Source: Acidobacteriota bacterium (GTDB taxonomy: Bacteria; Acidobacteriota; Terriglobia; Bryobacterales; Bryobacteraceae). Taken from it: 64,000 bases of DNA. Where the stretch lies: the NCBI GenBank assembly GCA_025352795.1, contig JANXSF010000021.1, positions 62,001 to 126,000 on the forward strand. The letters run 5' to 3'. Below the pieces are notes generated by a model. That model worked only from the letters and a program-made list of their open reading frames with translations, was not told where the DNA came from and searched no databases. Below are positions 21,821-31,769 of this stretch, piece by piece. Positions within the stretch are counted from its first letter, which is position 1, and each line of letters starts with the position of its first letter. A program made the position numbers and the translations under genes.

Positions 21821-23428
21821 CTAGAAGTACCCAGTAGCCAATTCCGGCTTCGCTTCCAAAGCCAGTTTCCAGCAACTCTTCGCCTCACCCTCATTTCCCT
21901 GACTCATCAAAGCGTGTCCCAAATTCAAGAACGCCTCAGCGAACTCCGGTCGCTCATTGATCGCTTCCTGATACAGCCGGGCAGCGTCCTCAAAATGTCC
22001 TTGCCGATGCAACAGTAGCCCGGTGTTGTAGAACAACTCCGCACCCCGTTCCCCCATGTCAATTAGACGAGCCTGAAACTCCAAAGCCTCTTCGTCATTC
22101 TTCAATTCCACGGCGATTGCAGCCAGCCCGCGGAACGCATCCAGCGAATCTGGAACCATCGATAGCAGCTTCTGATAGGTCTCTTTTGCCCCCTCGAAAT
22201 TCCGCGATTTCCATTGCGCCAAACCCAGGTTGGCAATGGCATCCTGCCAGTCCGGGCGCTTGCGCAAACAGGCTTCAAAGGCTTCCATTGCCCCCGCCCA
22301 CTCTTCGCGTTCCAACAGCAGGTATCCCAACCGGAACCAAGCCTGCTCGGAATCGCCATCTTTGGAAGTGATTTGTTGATACAGTTTTTCAGCTTCTTGC
22401 TTGTTGCCCAACTCTTCCAAAACGGTGCCCAAGTTGAACAACAGATCCAAGGAATCAGGCGTAATTTGCAGCGCTCTTTCGTAGGATTCTTTAGCTCCGC
22501 GGAAGTCCTTGCATTCCTGCCGGGCAATTCCCAAATTCAGGAATGCCTGCTTTGCGTCAGGACGAATGCGGATGGCTTGTTCCAAAGCCTTCACCGATTC
22601 CGGGTGCTTTTTAACTTTCTGCAAAGCCACACCCAAATTGAAATTGCGCTCAAAGTGGTCTGGCGTCAGCTTTACCAAATTCTCACAATGCCGCACAGCC
22701 GCCTCAAAATCGCCCTGCAGAAACGCGCAGGTTGCCATTCCTTCCAGCGCCGCCTCAGAATTGGAATTCAAATTCAGCAACCGTTCCGAATACTTTTTGA
22801 GGGCCGAATCATCCTTGCGCGCCACAGCGATGGCCACCAGGTTGGTCAGCGCGTCTTCCGAGTGTGGGTGCTTTTGCAAGTAGGTTTCAAAAACCGGCAC
22901 AGCTTCATCAAAGCGCCACAGCATTTGCAGCGACACTGCCTTGGAGAATTTTGCGGTTTCGTCATCGGGCCGGGTCGTCAAATATTTTTCAAGGACAGGC
23001 AAAGCCAATTCCGCTTTCCCCAAATGGAGCAGGCACACGGCTTGGCCCAATTGCGCCTCCACGCGTTTCGGTTCATTGGCCAGAACCGCCTCAAAACGTG
23101 TACTTCCTTGTTCCCATTGCCCTGTCTTTTCCAGGCAAACGGCCAGATTGAAAGCAGCCGCGTTGTTACGAGGTGCCAAATCTACCAGTTTTGAATAGTT
23201 GGTAGCAGCGTCTGACCAGTTTTCCAATTCACATAAAACATGGCCTCTTGCCGCCAGAATCTCTGGATGATTGGGCGCAATTTGGACCGCCGAATCCAGT
23301 TCCTTCAATGCTTCTTTGGGTTTTCCATCCAGATGCAAAGCCACCGCACGTGCTAAGACCGACTGCGATTCGGAATCTGAGGAACTATCTTTGGTAACTG
23401 TCTTAGTAAATCTTTGTTTTAGACTCAT
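21821..23428 (-). CDS. Tetratricopeptide-repeat protein
   Basis: 535 residues made almost wholly of about 14 TPR units of 34 residues, with recurring A-LNLG-A and G-LAL patterns; no signal peptide or membrane segment. The ATG chosen overlaps the stop of the large upstream gene (ATGA), so translation is coupled; the longer in-frame start lies inside that gene. TPR arrays bind partner proteins; the obvious candidate is the cytoplasmic part of the upstream 1477-residue protein. No enzymatic domain is seen. Confidence 0.88.
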   Translation of the reverse strand: MSLKQRFTKTVTKDSSSDSESQSVLARAVALHLDGKPKEALKELDSAVQIAPNHPEILAARGHVLCELENWSDAATNYSKLVDLAPRNNAAAFNLAVCLEKTGQWEQGSTRFEAVLANEPKRVEAQLGQAVCLLHLGKAELALPVLEKYLTTRPDDETAKFSKAVSLQMLWRFDEAVPVFETYLQKHPHSEDALTNLVAIAVARKDDSALKKYSERLLNLNSNSEAALEGMATCAFLQGDFEAAVRHCENLVKLTPDHFERNFNLGVALQKVKKHPESVKALEQAIRIRPDAKQAFLNLGIARQECKDFRGAKESYERALQITPDSLDLLFNLGTVLEELGNKQEAEKLYQQITSKDGDSEQAWFRLGYLLLEREEWAGAMEAFEACLRKRPDWQDAIANLGLAQWKSRNFEGAKETYQKLLSMVPDSLDAFRGLAAIAVELKNDEEALEFQARLIDMGERGAELFYNTGLLLHRQGHFEDAARLYQEAINERPEFAEAFLNLGHALMSQGNEGEAKSCWKLALEAKPELATGYF

Positions 23429-26400
23429 TTTTTTGAACTCCCGGAAGTGACACTCTCGTAAGGTGCGATCATTGCGCACAGCCGCCCAAATGTATCGTTA
23501 TTGTGAGTTAGAGAAATACGGAACACCCGCGATTCCTCCCCTCGTCCTGAAAACAAACCAACACCACCATAACCAAACCGGTCATCGCTGAAGGAATCAA
23601 CAATTTGACCTTGTACTGAAGTCGTAAACGAATTGCCCGCAACATCCATTGAAACCGTGAAGATGGAATCCACCTGCTGCGACAAAGGAATCGGAATAAA
23701 TTGCGATTTCATATGCTTGCCCCCAACCACCGCATAGCGCTCCAAAGCAACTGTCGGCACCGGCCCCGGTCGCGTCATCACTAAACGTGCCGCATAGTAG
23801 TTGTTCAAATCCATAGCCCGATATATCCACCCAAACGAGTGACGATCAAGACTGACAGTAACTTCATAGTGGTAATCCGTCATGCTCATGGATGGCGAAA
23901 ACACCGCCAATTGCCCTATCCGCACCAGCCCCGTCTTGTCGTAACCCCAAGTGCCCGCCCAACCACCCCGACCTGCCCATTGGGAAAGTCCCGAATGGAA
24001 ATCATCTTCATAAGCCACTGCCGACCGGTAAGCGATTCGCTGTTTGAATTTATCCCAGCTATCGCCGCTCGCCACCGGCACCCGCTTACCTGTTGCAATA
24101 ATTTCCTCAACTTCATTGGCTGGGGTCGTTGCAATCTTTTGATCACTCCCAATCACCTTATCGGCAGTTTTCTCTGGAAGGACATCCCCCGGCTCTGAAA
24201 CTCCTGCAATTTCCGTTGGAGGACCCTTCGATACCTCTGGTTTTTGATGGCTGCGCGCCGAAGTGAACAGCCAAACTCCCAAGATAACCGGCAGGCTCAG
24301 GGTGATCCATTTCAGATCGGCCGGGGCCTTCAGCAAGAAAAGCGAAAATCCGCTGGAAGGCTGTTTTTCATCCAATTTCTGACGCAAAACCTCCTCGGCT
24401 GGCTTGTCTGGACGTACAAACGGAGCTACCGAAAGACCGGAATTCAACTTCATCGGTGTGATCAACACCTGCAGTGGACCCAGCGAATTATCCAGGCGGA
24501 AACGGGAAGTCCGCGCCAGTTTCAAGGTCGGTAAAGCAACCAAATTAGCAAATGGCGGGATGCTCGTATCTGTCAAAAAATCAGCAATTTCCGGCCATTC
24601 CAGCTCAGGGGCAATGGCTGGCGCGGGAATCCTCGCCAGAAAGATGTCTGCCCCAGACTTCCTGTTGCTGCGAGTCGCCCGGTCAAAGAAAGGAACCGGC
24701 TGACCATAGCCATCCCGAAAACTAGCGACATCGTGACGCGGCGTTGGTTCCAGCGCCTTCATCGATGCAAAAACTTGCCACTTACTGCCAAATGCAAGCT
24801 CTGTCGAAGTTCCAGAATTAGGAATTCGCGAAACAGGATCGCCCCAAAGTGTTGCAGAAGCGCCAGCTGCTGCGGCGCAAACTAAAGATTCGGTTCGCTG
24901 CGGCAAGTCAATTTTCTGCAATCCAAAGGCAAAAGCCTGTTCTTGCCACTTGGAATTGTTGATCGTCCACAAGTCGGAGTTGGGGACAACCAGAGACATG
25001 GACTCCGTATGAAGGGAACGAAGGTGCTCCACCAGGCTCGACAATTCAAGATGGATTGCTTTCGATTCCAAGTTCGGAAAAACCGGTTTTTGCGCTGTCG
25101 ATTCTGCCAGGACTGGACTGGGTAAAATAACTGAAGTCGTCCTTTCAGAAAGCATACTTGCAGAGAGTTCGAAGTCAACAAATTCTGCTAAAAGATCTTG
25201 TTTTGGCAATGTTTTGCCCATTCGTGGGGCACTCTCTTGCAATTGAGCAGTTGTCAGGTTCTGGGGAAGTCCAGAAAGTTCACGTTGCGGCAAGGCCACT
25301 AAGACTGCAAAAGGAACACTCTCTGAACCCAAATTGTTGAGCCGCAATGGATCGCTGGCCAAAGGAGTTGGGGCAAAATGAACCCGTCCAGCAATGGGTG
25401 GCGGCGGAATAACCAGATCGCTTTCAATGGCGAATTGTAACCGTGCCAGAAGTTGCGGAATCGGTGTCCAAACCGCCCAATCACCCTGCAACTGAACCGA
25501 AATTTCTTTTGCTGCGATTACAAAATTGCCTTGCACGGGCTTTGCAAATGGCGGCGGTGGAGGATGCAGTTCGCTATCAATTACGAAGCGTAGGGAAGGC
25601 AATGCTAACTGAGGTACAAATGGAATGTCCTCGACCACATTGGAAAAAACTGCCGATCTGCCAGCAATCGCAAATACAACAGAACCGGATTCAGCAACGG
25701 GCAAATCGGTCAGCAATTCCGCTGGCTGATCACACGGCGGCAGCGCTTGTTGCAGTGCAGCCCAATCACTGGGGACCGGGGCGTCAAGCTGAACCGAACT
25801 ACTTCTTGCAGCAATTACAAAGATGCTCTGCATCGGCTTTGCAAACGGTGGCGGCGGAGGACGTAGTTCGCTGTCAATTACGAAGCGTAGGAAAGGCAAT
25901 GCCAACTGAGGTACAAACGGAATGTCCTCGACCACATTGGAAAAACTAGCCGACCTGCCTGCAATCGCAAATACAACAGAACCTGACCCACCAACGGGCA
26001 AGTCAGTTAGCAACTCCGCTGGCTGATCATAGGACACCAGCACTGGTTGAAGCGCAGTCCAATCGCTGGGAACCGGGGCTTTCAGAGGAACAGAAATACT
26101 TCTTGCCGTAATTACAAAATTGCTCTGCACTGGCTTGGCAAAAGGCGGAGGAGGGGGGTGTAGTTCACTATCAATTACGAAGCTTAGGGAAGGCACTGCC
26201 AACCGAGGTACAAACTCAATTTCCTCGGCAACATTTAAGCAGACGGTCGACCTGCTTGCAATTGCAAATACAACAGAACTTGACCCGCTAACGGGCAATT
26301 CCGTGAACAATTGCGCTGGATGATCACACGGCATCACCTTCGATGCAAGAGGTGCGCAATCGATGGGAGCTGGCACATCAATCGGAACCAGAATACATCT

Positions 26401-27858
26401 TGCCCCAATGACAAAGATGCTCTGCACCGGTGTCGCATCCCGCAATTCACTTTCAAGCGCGATCCGTGGTGAAGGGATTGCCGACTGAGGTACAAACGGG
26501 AGCTCCCCCGCAACATCAGAGATGAATGCCGATGCCGCAGACCTTGATGCAATCGTAAATCCAACAGACCCTGAAGCACCAACCGGTAAGTTGGTCAGCA
26601 ATTCTGCTTGCTGATTACATGGCAGCAGCTTAGGTTCCATCGCTGCCGGATCACTTTGCACCGGGACGTCCAACTGAACCACAATGCTTCTTGCTGCAAT
26701 GGCAAAGATGCTCTGCACCGGTGCTGCAATTGGCGGAGGTGGGATGCGCAATTCGCCATCAATGGCCAACCCTAACGGTTGAATCGCTGCGGCGAACTCG
26801 GGCCAAGCCAGCAAATCCGCTTGCTGCAACTGCGGAGTCGCGATGCTGGTCCTTGCTGGATTTACAAAGCGGAGATCCGCGCGATTTGCCAACGGTGGAG
26901 GCGGAGCAACCAGTACACTATCGACCAACAGACTGAGTAGCGGCAACTGCAGTTCAGTCCGTGCCGACCAGGTGACAGGAACTCCCGCCGTTCTTCCGAA
27001 ATGATGCGCTTCACGCAACGCCTTTGGTGAGATGGGAAAGGTAACTAACCCGCCCCTTTTTCGTCGTGAAATCACCTTTAAGCGCACGGGAGTGATTCTG
27101 GGCGAAAACAGGATGGGAACCTTGGACAGTAAAAGTCGCAGGGAACCGCGCACGGCATTCTGTTGGAACTGATCCAGTGTGCCGTGTTGTCGAACGGAAA
27201 TGGTGGGTAATAGGCCCTTGACAAACGGTTTAGCTTGCCGGGCAGCAGGCGCAGGCGGAGCAGGTAACGGTGGCTCAGCCTGGAAATTCATATTGCTGAG
27301 CGCGTCAAACAAAAGATCGTCCGAAGGACACTCGTCGATTTCCGACTGCGCAGTCGCCAGACTTATTTCTGCACTAGCTTGCCTATTTTCGACAACTTCC
27401 GAGGTATGATCCGCAATTTCAGGAGAAGCTTCAAAGGCCACCGAAAGCTCACTCAGTGCATCGAATAGCAAATCGTCAGACGGGCACTCATCGAGTGAAG
27501 GAGCGGCCGAATAATTGACTTCCCGATGAGCTGGTGCTGAACCTTGCCGATTCCCTGATGCTGGAGCGCCCACATTCGCCATTTGATGGGCGGCTTCCAA
27601 TGCTGCCGTATAGGCCGACGAACTTAATTCTGCGGCGAGTTCCCGTGATTCTTCCAGTGTGGTTAGCGCAATCGCCTTCAACCCCACAGAAGTGTTGTGA
27701 ACCCGCGTGGATTCCCCGCCACGATTGGTCACAAGTCGCCTCATGGCCATAAACGACTGCTCTTGCACATATTGCTTGCGATGAGCGTCGGAACAAAATT
27801 CGGCATCTTTCAACCGGCGGAAAATCGGAATCGTCTTTTTGCAGAATATGCACTGCAT
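23425..27858 (-). CDS. Large zinc-finger, internal-repeat, single-membrane-span protein of unknown function
   Basis: 1477 residues. The N-terminus carries a treble-clef-like finger: Cys3, Cys6, Cys22 and His26 (CIFC...FCSDAH). Two short repeats of DECPSDDLLFDALS lie between about 120 and 200. Residues of about 380-790 contain four copies of a 99-residue unit plus a decayed fifth. A single hydrophobic span (ITLSLPVILGVWLF) lies at about 1183-1200, followed by a charged linker and a C-terminal beta-sandwich-like domain of about 190 residues resembling LamG/DUF1080-type folds (YEDDFHSGLSQW). The topology suggests a cytoplasmic N-terminus with an exported C-terminal domain. I do not recognise the whole protein. 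The ATG at 27858 was chosen because it begins the finger; a hairpin lies just upstream. Confidence 0.75.
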   Translation of the reverse strand: MQCIFCKKTIPIFRRLKDAEFCSDAHRKQYVQEQSFMAMRRLVTNRGGESTRVHNTSVGLKAIALTTLEESRELAAELSSSAYTAALEAAHQMANVGAPASGNRQGSAPAHREVNYSAAPSLDECPSDDLLFDALSELSVAFEASPEIADHTSEVVENRQASAEISLATAQSEIDECPSDDLLFDALSNMNFQAEPPLPAPPAPAARQAKPFVKGLLPTISVRQHGTLDQFQQNAVRGSLRLLLSKVPILFSPRITPVRLKVISRRKRGGLVTFPISPKALREAHHFGRTAGVPVTWSARTELQLPLLSLLVDSVLVAPPPPLANRADLRFVNPARTSIATPQLQQADLLAWPEFAAAIQPLGLAIDGELRIPPPPIAAPVQSIFAIAARSIVVQLDVPVQSDPAAMEPKLLPCNQQAELLTNLPVGASGSVGFTIASRSAASAFISDVAGELPFVPQSAIPSPRIALESELRDATPVQSIFVIGARCILVPIDVPAPIDCAPLASKVMPCDHPAQLFTELPVSGSSSVVFAIASRSTVCLNVAEEIEFVPRLAVPSLSFVIDSELHPPPPPFAKPVQSNFVITARSISVPLKAPVPSDWTALQPVLVSYDQPAELLTDLPVGGSGSVVFAIAGRSASFSNVVEDIPFVPQLALPFLRFVIDSELRPPPPPFAKPMQSIFVIAARSSSVQLDAPVPSDWAALQQALPPCDQPAELLTDLPVAESGSVVFAIAGRSAVFSNVVEDIPFVPQLALPSLRFVIDSELHPPPPPFAKPVQGNFVIAAKEISVQLQGDWAVWTPIPQLLARLQFAIESDLVIPPPPIAGRVHFAPTPLASDPLRLNNLGSESVPFAVLVALPQRELSGLPQNLTTAQLQESAPRMGKTLPKQDLLAEFVDFELSASMLSERTTSVILPSPVLAESTAQKPVFPNLESKAIHLELSSLVEHLRSLHTESMSLVVPNSDLWTINNSKWQEQAFAFGLQKIDLPQRTESLVCAAAAGASATLWGDPVSRIPNSGTSTELAFGSKWQVFASMKALEPTPRHDVASFRDGYGQPVPFFDRATRSNRKSGADIFLARIPAPAIAPELEWPEIADFLTDTSIPPFANLVALPTLKLARTSRFRLDNSLGPLQVLITPMKLNSGLSVAPFVRPDKPAEEVLRQKLDEKQPSSGFSLFLLKAPADLKWITLSLPVILGVWLFTSARSHQKPEVSKGPPTEIAGVSEPGDVLPEKTADKVIGSDQKIATTPANEVEEIIATGKRVPVASGDSWDKFKQRIAYRSAVAYEDDFHSGLSQWAGRGGWAGTWGYDKTGLVRIGQLAVFSPSMSMTDYHYEVTVSLDRHSFGWIYRAMDLNNYYAARLVMTRPGPVPTVALERYAVVGGKHMKSQFIPIPLSQQVDSIFTVSMDVAGNSFTTSVQGQIVDSFSDDRFGYGGVGLFSGRGEESRVFRISLTHNNDTFGRLCAMIAPYESVTSGSSKK
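25513..26728 (-). repeat. Coding tandem repeat: four 99-residue units plus a partial unit
   Basis: Measured at the conserved GAGGTACAAA, copies begin at 25611, 25908, 26205 and 26487, a period of 297, 297 and 282 bases. Each encoded unit reads from PVQSIFVIAARS through DQPAELLTDLPV, GSVVFAIAGRS and FVPQLALPSLRFVIDSEL to PPPPPFAK. The inner copies are most alike, as expected from recent duplication. It is protein-coding, not a CRISPR array. Confidence 0.9.
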
Positions 27859-27862
27859 AGTT

Positions 27863-27888
27863 ATGGTCTGGGGGACGCTACAGACCAT
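27863..27888 (-). promoter_or_regulatory. Perfect inverted repeat just upstream of the large zinc-finger gene
   Basis: Eight-base arms (ATGGTCTG/CAGACCAT) with a 10-base spacer end 5 bases before the ATG. It could be an operator or an mRNA hairpin that shades the ribosome site; no clear Shine-Dalgarno sequence is visible around it. Confidence 0.5.
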
Positions 27889-29132: not shown

Positions 29133-29642
29133 TTATAGCGCTTCTGGCATTGGCAGCCCGGACTTTAATAACGCTTTGGCTAATACTTCTACGCTAGCGA
29201 GTTCGGCTATGCAACGAGCAATGGATACCTCGCAAATGAGTAGCGCACGTGCCCGTTCCAGCATCTTTTTTTCCCGGAAGGATAGAGGTTTTTCCCGTTG
29301 AATGATAATCAGCGTTTTGAAGACTTCTGCTACTGCCAGAAGACCGCCTATGCGCATTTTATCCGAATTTTCTTTGAAGCGATCTTTCCAATCGGCGGTC
29401 AACTTAATGGAACCGTCGGCAAGAAATGTCAGGACTCTAGAGATTTCCGTAGTCTTAGTAACTTTGCGTAATCCCACATCACCAACGTGGGAAAACGGGA
29501 CCATTACGGTTAAGTGATTCGTGGCCAGGCGGAGGAGGTAGAAACGTTCCAGTTGCGCCCCGAAACTGCGGCTGCTAATGTTCTCAATCACCCCGACACC
29601 GTGGTTCGGATAAACGACGCGTTCACCAATTTGAAAGGTCAT
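29133..29642 (-). CDS. CarD-family transcription regulator
   Basis: 169 residues. The N-terminal half is the CarD/TRCF RNA-polymerase-interacting domain (FQIGERVVYPNHGVGVIE, a family signature), and the C-terminal half is helical with RKVTKTTEISRVLTFL and SFREKKMLERARALL, matching the CdnL-type DNA-binding domain. CarD proteins bind the polymerase beta subunit and stabilise open promoter complexes, especially at rRNA promoters. The 318-base region upstream is unusually rich in palindromes, suggesting regulated transcription. Confidence 0.93.
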   Translation of the reverse strand: MTFQIGERVVYPNHGVGVIENISSRSFGAQLERFYLLRLATNHLTVMVPFSHVGDVGLRKVTKTTEISRVLTFLADGSIKLTADWKDRFKENSDKMRIGGLLAVAEVFKTLIIIQREKPLSFREKKMLERARALLICEVSIARCIAELASVEVLAKALLKSGLPMPEAL

Positions 29643-29708
29643 GCAGGGACCCCGTACACCTTTATAAAAGTTATTTAACCACTGGGATAGCTTGAGTGAA
29701 TTGTAAAG

Positions 29709-29870
29709 GTACTGTAAACTTTCGTCAAGAAGAAAATGCAGGCAAAGTCTAATAATTACAGTACATTTCGAATATCACCCCCATATGGGGGGATTGGTGA
29801 CTGAAATTTCAGTCACTTGCAAACAAGAAACAACACTTCGGTCAAGTGTTAAAAAACTGAAATTTCAGTT
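29709..29870. promoter_or_regulatory. Palindrome-dense region upstream of carD
   Basis: The 318 bases between carD and the prenyl synthase contain no gene but hold: inverted arms GTACTGTAA/TTACAGTAC (29709-29717 and 29756-29764); a 14-base palindrome (29778-29791); a perfect 20-base palindrome centred on CTGAAATTTCAG (29797-29816); AACACTT/AAGTGTT arms (29832-29850); and a second CTGAAATTTCAG palindrome of 16 bases (29855-29870). The two CTGAAATTTCAG centres are 56 bases apart. Multiple operators for a dimeric regulator are likely. Confidence 0.6.
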
Positions 29871-29935
29871 GATTTGGCCAACGGATAGTACACCCCTTCA
29901 GAGTGCTGGCTTTAAGATGCCATTTGGGATGAGAA

Positions 29936-29953
29936 CCCCACTTGAAAGTGGGG
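29936..29953 (-). terminator. Hairpin after the prenyl synthase gene
   Basis: Seven-base arms (CCCCACT/AGTGGGG) with a TGAA loop lie 8 bases beyond the gene end. No T-run follows on the minus strand, so intrinsic termination is uncertain. Confidence 0.4.
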
Positions 29954-29960
29954 GCTGAAT

Positions 29961-30962
29961 TTAGTGGTCTCTATCGGTAATCAGTTCGGTGACGGCTGCT
30001 AAGGCCCGCTGTGTTTGGGAATCCGGAAAGTTAGCGATAATTTCCCGGGCGGTCTCCGTAAATACTTGGGCACGGGCTCGAGCCCGTTCAATCCCTTTGC
30101 TGGAATTGGCGAAATCCAGAATCTGCTTGAACGGGACTGCCGCGTAATCACCGGTTTTGAGTACGGTTTCCACCATGGCACGTTCCACGGCGGTTCCCCG
30201 TTCCAAAGCGTAAATGAGTGGTAGGGTTACTTTGCCTTCTCTCAGATCGTTACCCACTGGTTTGCCTAAGACAGATTCCGATGCGGTGAAATCCAGAATG
30301 TCGTCCACCAATTGGAAGGCCATCCCCAGATTCCATGCAAAGTGTCCTAAGCGGTTCTCTTCTTCCTCACTGGCATGACCGACAATGGCACCAAGTTTGG
30401 CACAGACTGAAAACAGGCTTGCCGTTTTGCGATCTACCAGATCCATGTAATCGTTTTCAGTAAGGCTCATGTTGCCAATCCGTTCCAATTGGAGCACCTC
30501 ACCTTCCACCATTAGCTGGGTGAGTGAAATGAGCAGGTCAAGCACACGGAAATTTCTTTCCTTCAGTGCCATCTGGAAGGCTTGCATGTACAGCCAGTCA
30601 CCGGCCAACACACTGGTATGATTACCCCAAACCGTGTTTGTGGAGGCCCGCCCACGGCGCGTACCGGCAACATCAATCACGTCGTCGTGCACCAGGGTGG
30701 CGGTGTGAACCATTTCCACTACAGCGCCCAATCGAATGGCCATTTCGTCAGGATCGCGGAAAAGGCGGCAGGAAAGCAGTAAGAGTGTCGGGCGAAGCCG
30801 TTTACCACCACCGGCCTGCAAATGACGGGTAATGGCGGTTACAGTATCGACACTGGCAATGGATTCCAGTCGTATCTCTTCTTCAACACGGCGCAGATCC
30901 TCTTTTACGATCTGGTGTATTTCTAATGCGGAGAAAGTCTGGCCAATCTTGCCAAAGCCCAT
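29961..30962 (-). CDS. Trans-polyprenyl diphosphate synthase
   Basis: 333 residues. Both aspartate-rich motifs are present: HDDVID and DDILD, with GGGKRLRP, the substrate-binding signature, before the first. It condenses isopentenyl diphosphate onto allylic diphosphates to give the side chain of menaquinone or ubiquinone. Chain length cannot be told from sequence alone, though the size fits octaprenyl/heptaprenyl/solanesyl synthases. The ATG at 30962 was chosen over a start 105 bases upstream because the latter adds non-family Cys-rich sequence and overlaps the divergent TPR gene. Confidence 0.93.
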   Translation of the reverse strand: MGFGKIGQTFSALEIHQIVKEDLRRVEEEIRLESIASVDTVTAITRHLQAGGGKRLRPTLLLLSCRLFRDPDEMAIRLGAVVEMVHTATLVHDDVIDVAGTRRGRASTNTVWGNHTSVLAGDWLYMQAFQMALKERNFRVLDLLISLTQLMVEGEVLQLERIGNMSLTENDYMDLVDRKTASLFSVCAKLGAIVGHASEEEENRLGHFAWNLGMAFQLVDDILDFTASESVLGKPVGNDLREGKVTLPLIYALERGTAVERAMVETVLKTGDYAAVPFKQILDFANSSKGIERARARAQVFTETAREIIANFPDSQTQRALAAVTELITDRDH

Positions 30963-31049
30963 GGAATCCTCAAGTTTACCCGTTATACGAAGCCGCTGGC
31001 AAACTTCATTTGCCTCAATCCTACAGCCACGTTGACAGCTACACTTTAG

Positions 31050-31769
31050 ATGACCATGTTTTTCCATTCCGTCCTAATTTTTCAGTTGGCTTTTCAAGTG
31101 AGCCCAGGATCGGCAGATTCGTACGCGGAAGGTGTATTGCTACTGGAGCAAGGGAAATTAGATGCGGCTCGGGCAAGCCTGGAACTGGCGGTAAAACGAA
31201 CTCCGGCAAATGCCCAAGTATGGAAAGCTTTGGGAGTTGTGGCAGCCATGGCGGGGGATTACAGCGCCGCTGAGCCGACTTTTGCGAGGGCTTGCCAACT
31301 GAATGCGAAACTGGTCGACGGCTGCTATTTTTGGGCTCGGGCGCTGTACGCCTTAAATCGATTTGAGCCTGCCATTGCCGTTCTGAAGAAACTGGACGAC
31401 GGGCAGGCTGGTCGAACTCAAACCGCTTTGGGGCAGGCCTACGAGGCGTTGGGCAAGATTTCAGAAGCAGAAAGCAGCTTTCAAAAGGCACTTACCGCCA
31501 AGGATTTTATTAGCGAATCGCAACTGCGCTACGGCATTTTTCTTTATCGGACTGGACGGTTGACCGAATCTGGTGACAGGCTGCAACAGGCATTAAAACT
31601 TGCTCCCCATTCTGCGGAAGCGGCAGCGGAGTTAGGCCGAGTTAGATACCAGCAGGGAAACTTAGAGGAATCTGAAACGCTGTTGAGCAACGCAGTGGCA
31701 TGGGAGCCGACGCGCGAATCGGCCAGATTGTTGTTGGATAAAGTGAGGAAGCTTCAGGGCGTGAAATAG
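31050..31769 (+). CDS. Exported TPR protein
   Basis: 239 residues with a hydrophobic signal-like N-terminus (FFHSVLIFQLAF) and about five to six TPR units between residues 25 and 235 (YAEGVLLLEQGKLDAA, VWKALGVVAAMAGDY, AEAAAELGRVRYQQG). It probably acts as a periplasmic scaffold. A start at 31056 is equally possible. The 3-prime end overlaps the convergent FG-GAP gene by 16 bases. Function unknown. Confidence 0.8.
   Translation: MTMFFHSVLIFQLAFQVSPGSADSYAEGVLLLEQGKLDAARASLELAVKRTPANAQVWKALGVVAAMAGDYSAAEPTFARACQLNAKLVDGCYFWARALYALNRFEPAIAVLKKLDDGQAGRTQTALGQAYEALGKISEAESSFQKALTAKDFISESQLRYGIFLYRTGRLTESGDRLQQALKLAPHSAEAAAELGRVRYQQGNLEESETLLSNAVAWEPTRESARLLLDKVRKLQGVK

Follow-up and report, generated by a model that had tools for sequence, protein, structure and literature searches.

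Genetic context of carD

The window, that is, the whole 64-kb stretch of DNA that was analysed, derives from a genome of 6.0 Mb, and the family relatives with which it was compared are mostly Bryobacterales and Bryobacteraceae of the Acidobacteria. Two co-directional genes on its minus strand, a polyprenyl diphosphate synthase gene and carD, are separated by an intergenic gap of 318 nt (29643-29960). The carD product carries both domains expected of CdnL/CarD proteins, the CarD_TRCF RNA polymerase-interaction domain (Pfam CarD_TRCF_RID, 1.5e-11) and the CarD C-terminal domain (CarD_C, 2.7e-22), and its closest solved structure is the CarD-family entry 2lwj (E 1.8e-29). The upstream gene product matched polyprenyl synthases in NCBIfam, none above its own cut-off. 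The gap holds a promoter and a series of inverted repeats, among which we distinguish CAC-N9-GTG sites (A) and palindromes centred on CTGAAATTTCAG (P). The sister genome G001, used for comparison throughout, is the only same-genus genome among 237 family genomes, and its CarD is 85% identical.

29133..29642, minus strand: carD, a CdnL-type RNA polymerase-binding regulator of 169 aa, downstream of the 318-nt gap
29700..29728, minus strand: carD promoter TTGACG-N17-TACAAT, sigma70-type, 10/12 consensus matches
29778..29791, no strand assigned: palindrome CCCCCATATGGGGG, a perfect dyad, of the five the nearest to the promoter
29797..29816, no strand assigned: P2 palindrome GTGACTGAAATTTCAGTCAC, 20 nt, perfect
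29832..29850, no strand assigned: A2 dyad AACACTTcggtcAAGTGTT (AACACTTgaccgAAGTGTT), AACACTT-gaccg-AAGTGTT on the minus strand, CAC-N9-GTG
29855..29870, no strand assigned: P1 palindrome AACTGAAATTTCAGTT, 16 nt, perfect
29891..29905, minus strand: A1 dyad CACTCTGAAGGGGTG, CAC-N9-GTG
29936..29953, minus strand: hairpin CCCCACTTgaAAGTGGGG, directly after the polyprenyl synthase stop, 11/18 identical in G001
29961..31067, minus strand: polyprenyl diphosphate synthase (Pfam polyprenyl_synt, 1.6e-71), the upstream gene, co-directional with carD

Along the coding strand the order runs from the synthase stop-hairpin through A1, P1, A2, P2 and the CCCCCATATGGGGG palindrome to the promoter and carD. 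From the end of P2 to the -35 element is 69 bp, and the A and P sites span 69-177 bp upstream of that element; given the position of the promoter, these dyads are upstream of it and not in a leader starting there. The promoter itself is 25/29 identical in G001, and a TTGACA/TATAAT-like promoter (at most 3 mismatches, counted without a shuffled control) is found in 128/128 family carD upstream regions, with the -35 element mostly near -90.

Three small open reading frames of 22-57 aa, all on the plus strand, overlap the gap region. An inverted repeat pairs TTACAGTAC at 29709-29717, in the -35/-10 spacer, with GTACTGTAA at 29756-29764 (minus strand); its counterpart in G001 is TTACAAT/ATTGTAA, a single case in which one compensated change keeps the symmetry. 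Elsewhere in the window, positions 23425-27888 (minus strand) hold a frame of 1487 aa that has no Pfam match; cysteines are clustered at its N-terminus, and Pro-rich repeats are numerous.

Density of inverted repeats in the intergenic gap

With a dyad defined as a maximal perfect inverted repeat with arms of at least 7 and a loop of at most 6, the gap contains five perfect dyads (arms 7-10), in agreement with the initial annotation, which had reported five palindromes in these 318 bases. Two of them are the CTGAAATTTCAG-centred perfect palindromes of 20 and 16 nt, whose cores start 56 bases apart, as had been described. The accompanying claim of a density above chance also holds: dinucleotide shuffles contain 0.17 such dyads on average and two at most, 0/1000 reaching five, and 0/1000 shuffles of the same 318 nt yield a gapless arm of 10. 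The whole window has 33 dyads of this kind, and its densest 318-nt stretches, with six dyads, start at 29755-29778. Among 128 non-redundant carD upstream regions of the family, the source genome has five dyads and the runner-up two.

A sixth dyad, A1, is imperfect (GCACTCtgaagGGGTGT on the minus strand, 29890-29906); it was missed at first reading and belongs to the conserved class. The CCCCCATATGGGGG palindrome is 11/14 identical in G001, where its symmetry is absent. The hairpin at 29936-29953, which is without a U-run and was not called as a terminator, probably belongs to the polyprenyl synthase gene as its transcript end.

A strictly spaced site upstream of carD in most of the family

CAC-N9-GTG occurs in 103 of the 128 non-redundant family carD upstream regions (6.7 expected from dinucleotide shuffles) and the stricter CACC-N7-GGTG in 56 of them (0.7 expected), counts that are not independent events, the regions being related. 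The runner-up among CAC-GTG spacings at carD, N6, reaches 21 against 4.8 expected, and genomic control windows of the same loci contain CAC-N9-GTG in 47 of 1095 cases. The set was drawn from 205 pooled upstream regions (the short L015 left out) by removing those shorter than 300 nt or sharing at least 25% of their 11-mers; an earlier set comprised our own locus and 76 of 80 others, L080, L082, L084 and L145 having too little upstream DNA.

The A site is found mostly 101-138 bp, and sometimes 153-196 bp, upstream of the -35 element, with clusters at 101-104, 118-122, 129-136 and 158-161 bp; A2, at -120, falls within the family cluster at -122..-118. The distance from A to the promoter is not the same in all genera; a simple activator would not usually show such variation. 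By eye, the genes upstream vary among lineages, and A thus seems to belong to carD. In other families of the class, CAC-N9-GTG was present at 1/25 carD loci (at -21), compared with 5/5 own-family loci in the same table; these 25 are the best-scoring loci, from 25 of the 71 genomes outside the family with a match, with several from one genus and with guessed start codons that seem wrong in L271 and L287.

Covariation between the arms of CAC-N9-GTG was not clear at any position (largest z 1.99), and a protein-dimer site therefore fits A better than an RNA stem does. Conservation at orthologous promoters with a fixed half-site spacing, as operator arrays display, was found for A and, in part, for P. 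The comparison shows that A (CACTTGACCGAAGTG) keeps a strict spacing and is present before carD in most family members, although the genes preceding carD differ among them.

The P palindromes and a duplicated A-P module

A search of the genome for CTGAAATTTCAG, as the initial annotation had proposed, returned exactly three occurrences, two of them in the gap upstream of carD and the third at C23:230525, with an open frame about 100 bp downstream of it. The two at carD are placed almost equally with respect to the A sites, 22 bp after A1 and 21 bp after A2, and the resulting tandem A-P module repeats at a distance of 56 bp (P1-P2) or 57 bp (A1-A2). G001 keeps the order A1-P1-A2-P2 with an A-P gap of 22 bp (21 to the decayed P2), and G074, from another genus, has upstream of carD a single A with CTGAAATATCAG, also at 22 bp, the evidence for a common gap thus coming from three genomes. 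Composites of A and P with a gap of 17-27 number two in our genome, two in G001 and one in G074, all at carD. Family-wide, with the source genus excluded, CTGA-N4-TCAG showed no enrichment at 22 downstream of A.

In the comparison with G001, P1 is 15/16 identical, and P2 13/20, its left half CAAGTGACTGAAAT being exact (a 14-base run) and its right half lost; A1 is 14/17 identical, reading CACCTTGAAGAGGTG there, and A2 is 10/19, with little shared beyond the CAC and GTG core. CAC-N9-GTG is nevertheless found in G001 at the places of both A1 and A2, one of them at -119, whereas the rest of the DNA upstream of the promoter is 56/119 (47%) identical. The initial annotation had named a lack of conservation in close relatives as evidence against the palindromes; we found the CTGAAATTTCAG pair partly kept in G001, a finding that rests on one comparison, as there is a single same-genus genome.

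Further afield, CTGAAATTTCAG with at most 3 mismatches occurs in 27/126 other carD upstream regions and, in a set of 120 palindromes made by permuting the half-sites, is the most frequent (mean 9.6, second 24). TGACTGAAATTTCAGTCA with at most 2 mismatches was found in 9/200 family genomes, at one place each: in our genome and G001 this is carD, five others are in or near various genes, one is just upstream of the MarR-type gene of L069 described below, and one precedes an HTH-cupin regulator gene (L065) by about 15 bp. The CTGAAATTTCAG palindromes are mostly genus-specific and form a less widespread class than A; the comparison shows P as an additional palindromic site of the source genus and a few other genera.

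It could be argued that the A dyads are functional and the CTGAAATTTCAG palindromes neutral or nearly so, their number being an accident of one lineage. CTGA-N4-TCAG is indeed present in just 10/128 carD upstream regions, half of P2 is lost in G001 and the symmetry of CCCCCATATGGGGG is not kept. We nevertheless regard this reading as unlikely, since the longest gap-free stretches identical to G001 upstream of the promoter are the 15 nt of P1, followed by the 14 nt of the left P2 half, CTGA-N4-TCAG remains enriched when the source genus is removed (8/126 against 3/1095 control windows), the A-P gap is equal in three genomes, and MarR-type genes of relatives carry palindromes of the P class, as described below. 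Other CTGA-TCAG spacings at carD were counted at 0 (N3), 1 (N5) and 0 (N6).

Palindromes of the P class at MarR-type genes

A near-exact copy of P2, TTACTGAAATTTCAGTCA, is located in G051 (L069) just upstream of a MarR-type gene (PF12802, 1.4e-12). With at most 3 mismatches, CTGAAATTTCAG occurs near the start of 9 of the 10 close orthologs of this gene for which upstream DNA is available, where permuted palindromes average 0.70 and 2/120, CTGAAATTTCAG itself included, reach 9; CTGTAATTACAG, at the same tolerance, occurs in 10/10. These ten genes, kept apart from three distant ones (the partial L405 and L409 were left out), are related and do not represent ten independent events. Their palindromes are positioned 26-77 nt before the hit-derived start. 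At carD, CTGTAATTACAG is not special, with 16/126 upstream regions, a count equalled by 17/180 permuted palindromes.

Palindromes resembling CTG(A/T)AATT(T/A)CAG were observed near the start of MarR-type genes in some relatives (L069, L395-L404), and they are probably those genes' own operators. In some relatives the promoter of a MarR-type regulator gene itself contains palindromes of this kind, and P is therefore probably a MarR-type operator; on sequence grounds palindromes of the P class belong with MarR-type regulators in the family. Two features would be expected of such an operator. A P-class palindrome at the promoter of a MarR-type gene was found; a cognate regulator in our own genome was not, the G051 ortholog having no match at E <= 0.001 there or in G001. 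Thus, the regulator at the source carD would be another protein. A relative of the G051 regulator is present in 14/200 family genomes.

aroF as a second place of the A pattern

The strict A pattern has, in genus g5, a second orthologous place upstream of aroF, which encodes DAHP synthase (seven genomes). CACC-N7-GGTG is also found at aroF of our genome and of G001 (TAACACCACGTATAGGTGGTTA and TGTCACCACGCGCAGGTGGTTA), and in 17/63 non-redundant aroF upstream regions overall, against 0.3 per 69 in mononucleotide shuffles. These sites often read ATACACC-N7-GGTG or AACACC-N7-GGTG. Sites of the A type precede aroF in our genome, in G001 and in other genera. The aroF gene of our genome is at G000:C31, 5339-6382 (L320, L347), and the others are L314-L343 and L355-L394; 29 of 30 loci were used at first (L323 was too short) and 69 upstream regions later, 63 of them non-redundant, with an odd start in L384 and L386.

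The looser counts at aroF are harder to interpret. CAC-N8-GTG is found in 35/63 upstream regions, CAC-N9-GTG in 31/63 and CACC-N10-GGTG in 14/69; because CAC-N8-GTG is common there, and is read as coming from an attenuator hairpin, the CAC-N9-GTG count is inflated, and CACC-N7-GGTG is the safer measure. Thus, A at aroF supports a small regulon, short of proof. Across whole genomes MCACCN7GGTGKT is rarer than its reversed control (7 against 19 in our genome, 4 against 16 in G001), and there is therefore no sign of a large regulon. Of five places of this pattern in our genome, only that at aroF is between open frames.

Most family genomes examined have a short Phe/Trp/Tyr-rich frame before aroF (MLLFNTNLANKIYWPRFWYQT in ours, with FRFW as a frequent core), and a loose pattern finds such a leader frame in 53/63 upstream regions. 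A CCCACTC...GAGTGGG hairpin stands just before aroF in the ten upstream regions viewed. Rfam gave no match on the aroF upstream regions of L320 and L314. Leader frame and hairpin are likely to form a ribosome-mediated attenuator.

A probable compound operator array upstream of the carD promoter

The explanation that we favour, and consider probable, is that carD transcription is governed from this gap by a compound control region, in which an array of DNA operators precedes a sigma70-type promoter; the region would not be a structured RNA. Toward carD, it would consist of two tandem modules, each with a predicted A operator followed, 21-22 bp on, by a predicted CTGAAATTTCAG operator. As we infer, A and P would each bind a regulator that is a dimer and has a winged-helix or helix-turn-helix fold, that of P being most likely of MarR type. 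The two classes of sites may act on carD transcription as activating sites, or else through looping or the cooperative assembly of regulators, and duplication of the A-P module, which is older than the split between our genome and G001, would strengthen such assembly. Simple blocking is disfavoured because the A and P sites all lie clear of the promoter. A more specific version, in which a family regulator acts on CAC-N9-GTG at carD and aroF, joined in the source genus by a MarR-type regulator on CTGAAATTTCAG in the duplicated module, is put forward tentatively, as a possibility for which the odds are still somewhat adverse.

The initial annotation had offered several operators or a structured RNA. 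The first of these is favoured by the conserved A spacing and by dyads upstream of a conserved promoter, and the second is left unsupported by the absence of a conserved fold. On this view the palindromes would fold in a read-through transcript from the synthase gene into carD, or in a separate small RNA, and would function in attenuation, in RNA processing or as an sRNA. Several of the dyads make good hairpins, and the minus strand of the window folds better than 99/100 shuffles (z -2.92); G001, however, folds like its shuffles (z -0.49, 34/100 as good), the CAC-N9-GTG arms do not clearly covary, Rfam returned nothing at the gathering threshold (best sub-threshold score 21.2 bits against a cut-off of 55), and no terminator was found in the region. 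Moreover, the conserved promoter is downstream of the dyads, so a carD transcript starting there would be without them. Overall, we judge a structured RNA to be distinctly improbable.

A lineage-specific repeat or transposition footprint (MITE- or REP-like, bounded by CTGAAATTTCAG) inserted upstream of carD would account for two near-identical palindromes, as terminal repeats, and for their being mostly genus-specific. It is very improbable, as the region has no second copy in our genome, where the A-P composite is found nowhere else, the element has the same location in G001, and another genus (G074) has one A-P module, equally spaced, upstream of its carD.

Least probable of all is that CarD binds the dyads and thereby controls its own gene. 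PrbP of Liberibacter is a relative of CarD/CdnL. In the parts of the sources used here, autoregulation is reported for Rhodobacter CarD (PMC8820732) and PrbP, a counter-example, is said to work by way of RNA polymerase beta together with a particular sequence in the promoter (PMC5572369), but the Rhodobacter case is ascribed to the promoter spacer (PMC8820732), CarD is described as binding RNA polymerase directly, unlike motif-binding factors (PMC10232725), and A is absent at 24/25 carD loci of other families; CarD is thus an unlikely ligand of the dyads.

Relation to known systems and implications

The operator array that we favour is of a known kind. In compound upstream operator arrays of bacterial promoters, one regulator or two bind as dimers to sites in tandem. 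The carD region resembles such arrays in that a sigma70 promoter is preceded by tandem, perfect or near-perfect dyads of 15-20 bp whose half-sites are at a fixed spacing, and differs in having a duplicated module made of two alternating classes of site. Compared with most repressor operators, its sites are farther away, 69-177 bp upstream of -35. The autoregulatory operators of MarR-type (PF12802) genes offer a second likeness: in G051 the palindrome ACTGAAATTTCAGT is just upstream of the regulator's own start and related palindromes are found in orthologs, whereas in the source genome, which has no match to that ortholog, the palindromes precede carD and each of the two is paired with an A site.

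An NtrC-type enhancer site reads TGCACC-N5-GGTGCA. It shares with A the CACC/GGTG half-sites about 100-160 bp upstream of the promoter, but the carD spacing, CACC-N7-GGTG, is two bases longer and the promoters are sigma70-like. An NtrC/sigma54 enhancer was rejected on these grounds, with CACC-N5-GGTG in 0/128 upstream regions and TTGACA/TATAAT-like carD promoters.

CarD affects promoter opening by RNA polymerase, and its amount elsewhere is controlled largely after transcription, as far as the relevant parts of two studies report. In mycobacteria, this occurs through Clp proteolysis and the antisense RNA AscarD (PMC8820732), with SigB control of carD transcription also cited in that source, and in Caulobacter through (p)ppGpp-dependent clearance of CdnL (PMC11034885). 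The source genome would resemble these systems in that the level of CarD is regulated; control there, in the same parts of these sources, is largely post-transcriptional or post-translational, while the source carD has a conserved upstream DNA element. The A site would thus show that carD is controlled at transcription too. If a family A regulator exists as proposed, it would tie CarD to amino acid supply, aroF being the entry to aromatic amino acid synthesis.

In the literature searched, we did not find the A and P sites or their link to carD: CTGAAATTTCAG returned unrelated human papers only, CAC-N9-GTG, CACC-N7-GGTG and ACACCTNNNNNAGGTGT returned none, and none was found on transcription factor binding sites of CarD in Acidobacteria. 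The conserved A site at carD, shared with aroF in some genomes, provides a DNA bait for finding its regulator, and the P palindromes provide a second bait, with a protein class (MarR type) to look for. The case also illustrates that, of two partner sites, the one that catches the eye by its perfect symmetry may be conserved less well than the plainer one.

Other sequences at carD in the family

In L119, L126, L079, L089 and similar loci, a block CTGAACnCTGTTCTCC...GTGTA occupies the place of the left arm of CAC-N9-GTG, and it is perhaps a variant A site. In L029 (G024), a 22-bp perfect palindrome, GTGATTTCTCTAGAGAAATCAC, is located at -109 from the carD start, just downstream of the carD promoter, and is followed by an imperfect copy. 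Other lineages, as GTGATTTCTCTAGAGAAATCAC illustrates, may have acquired other operators at carD.
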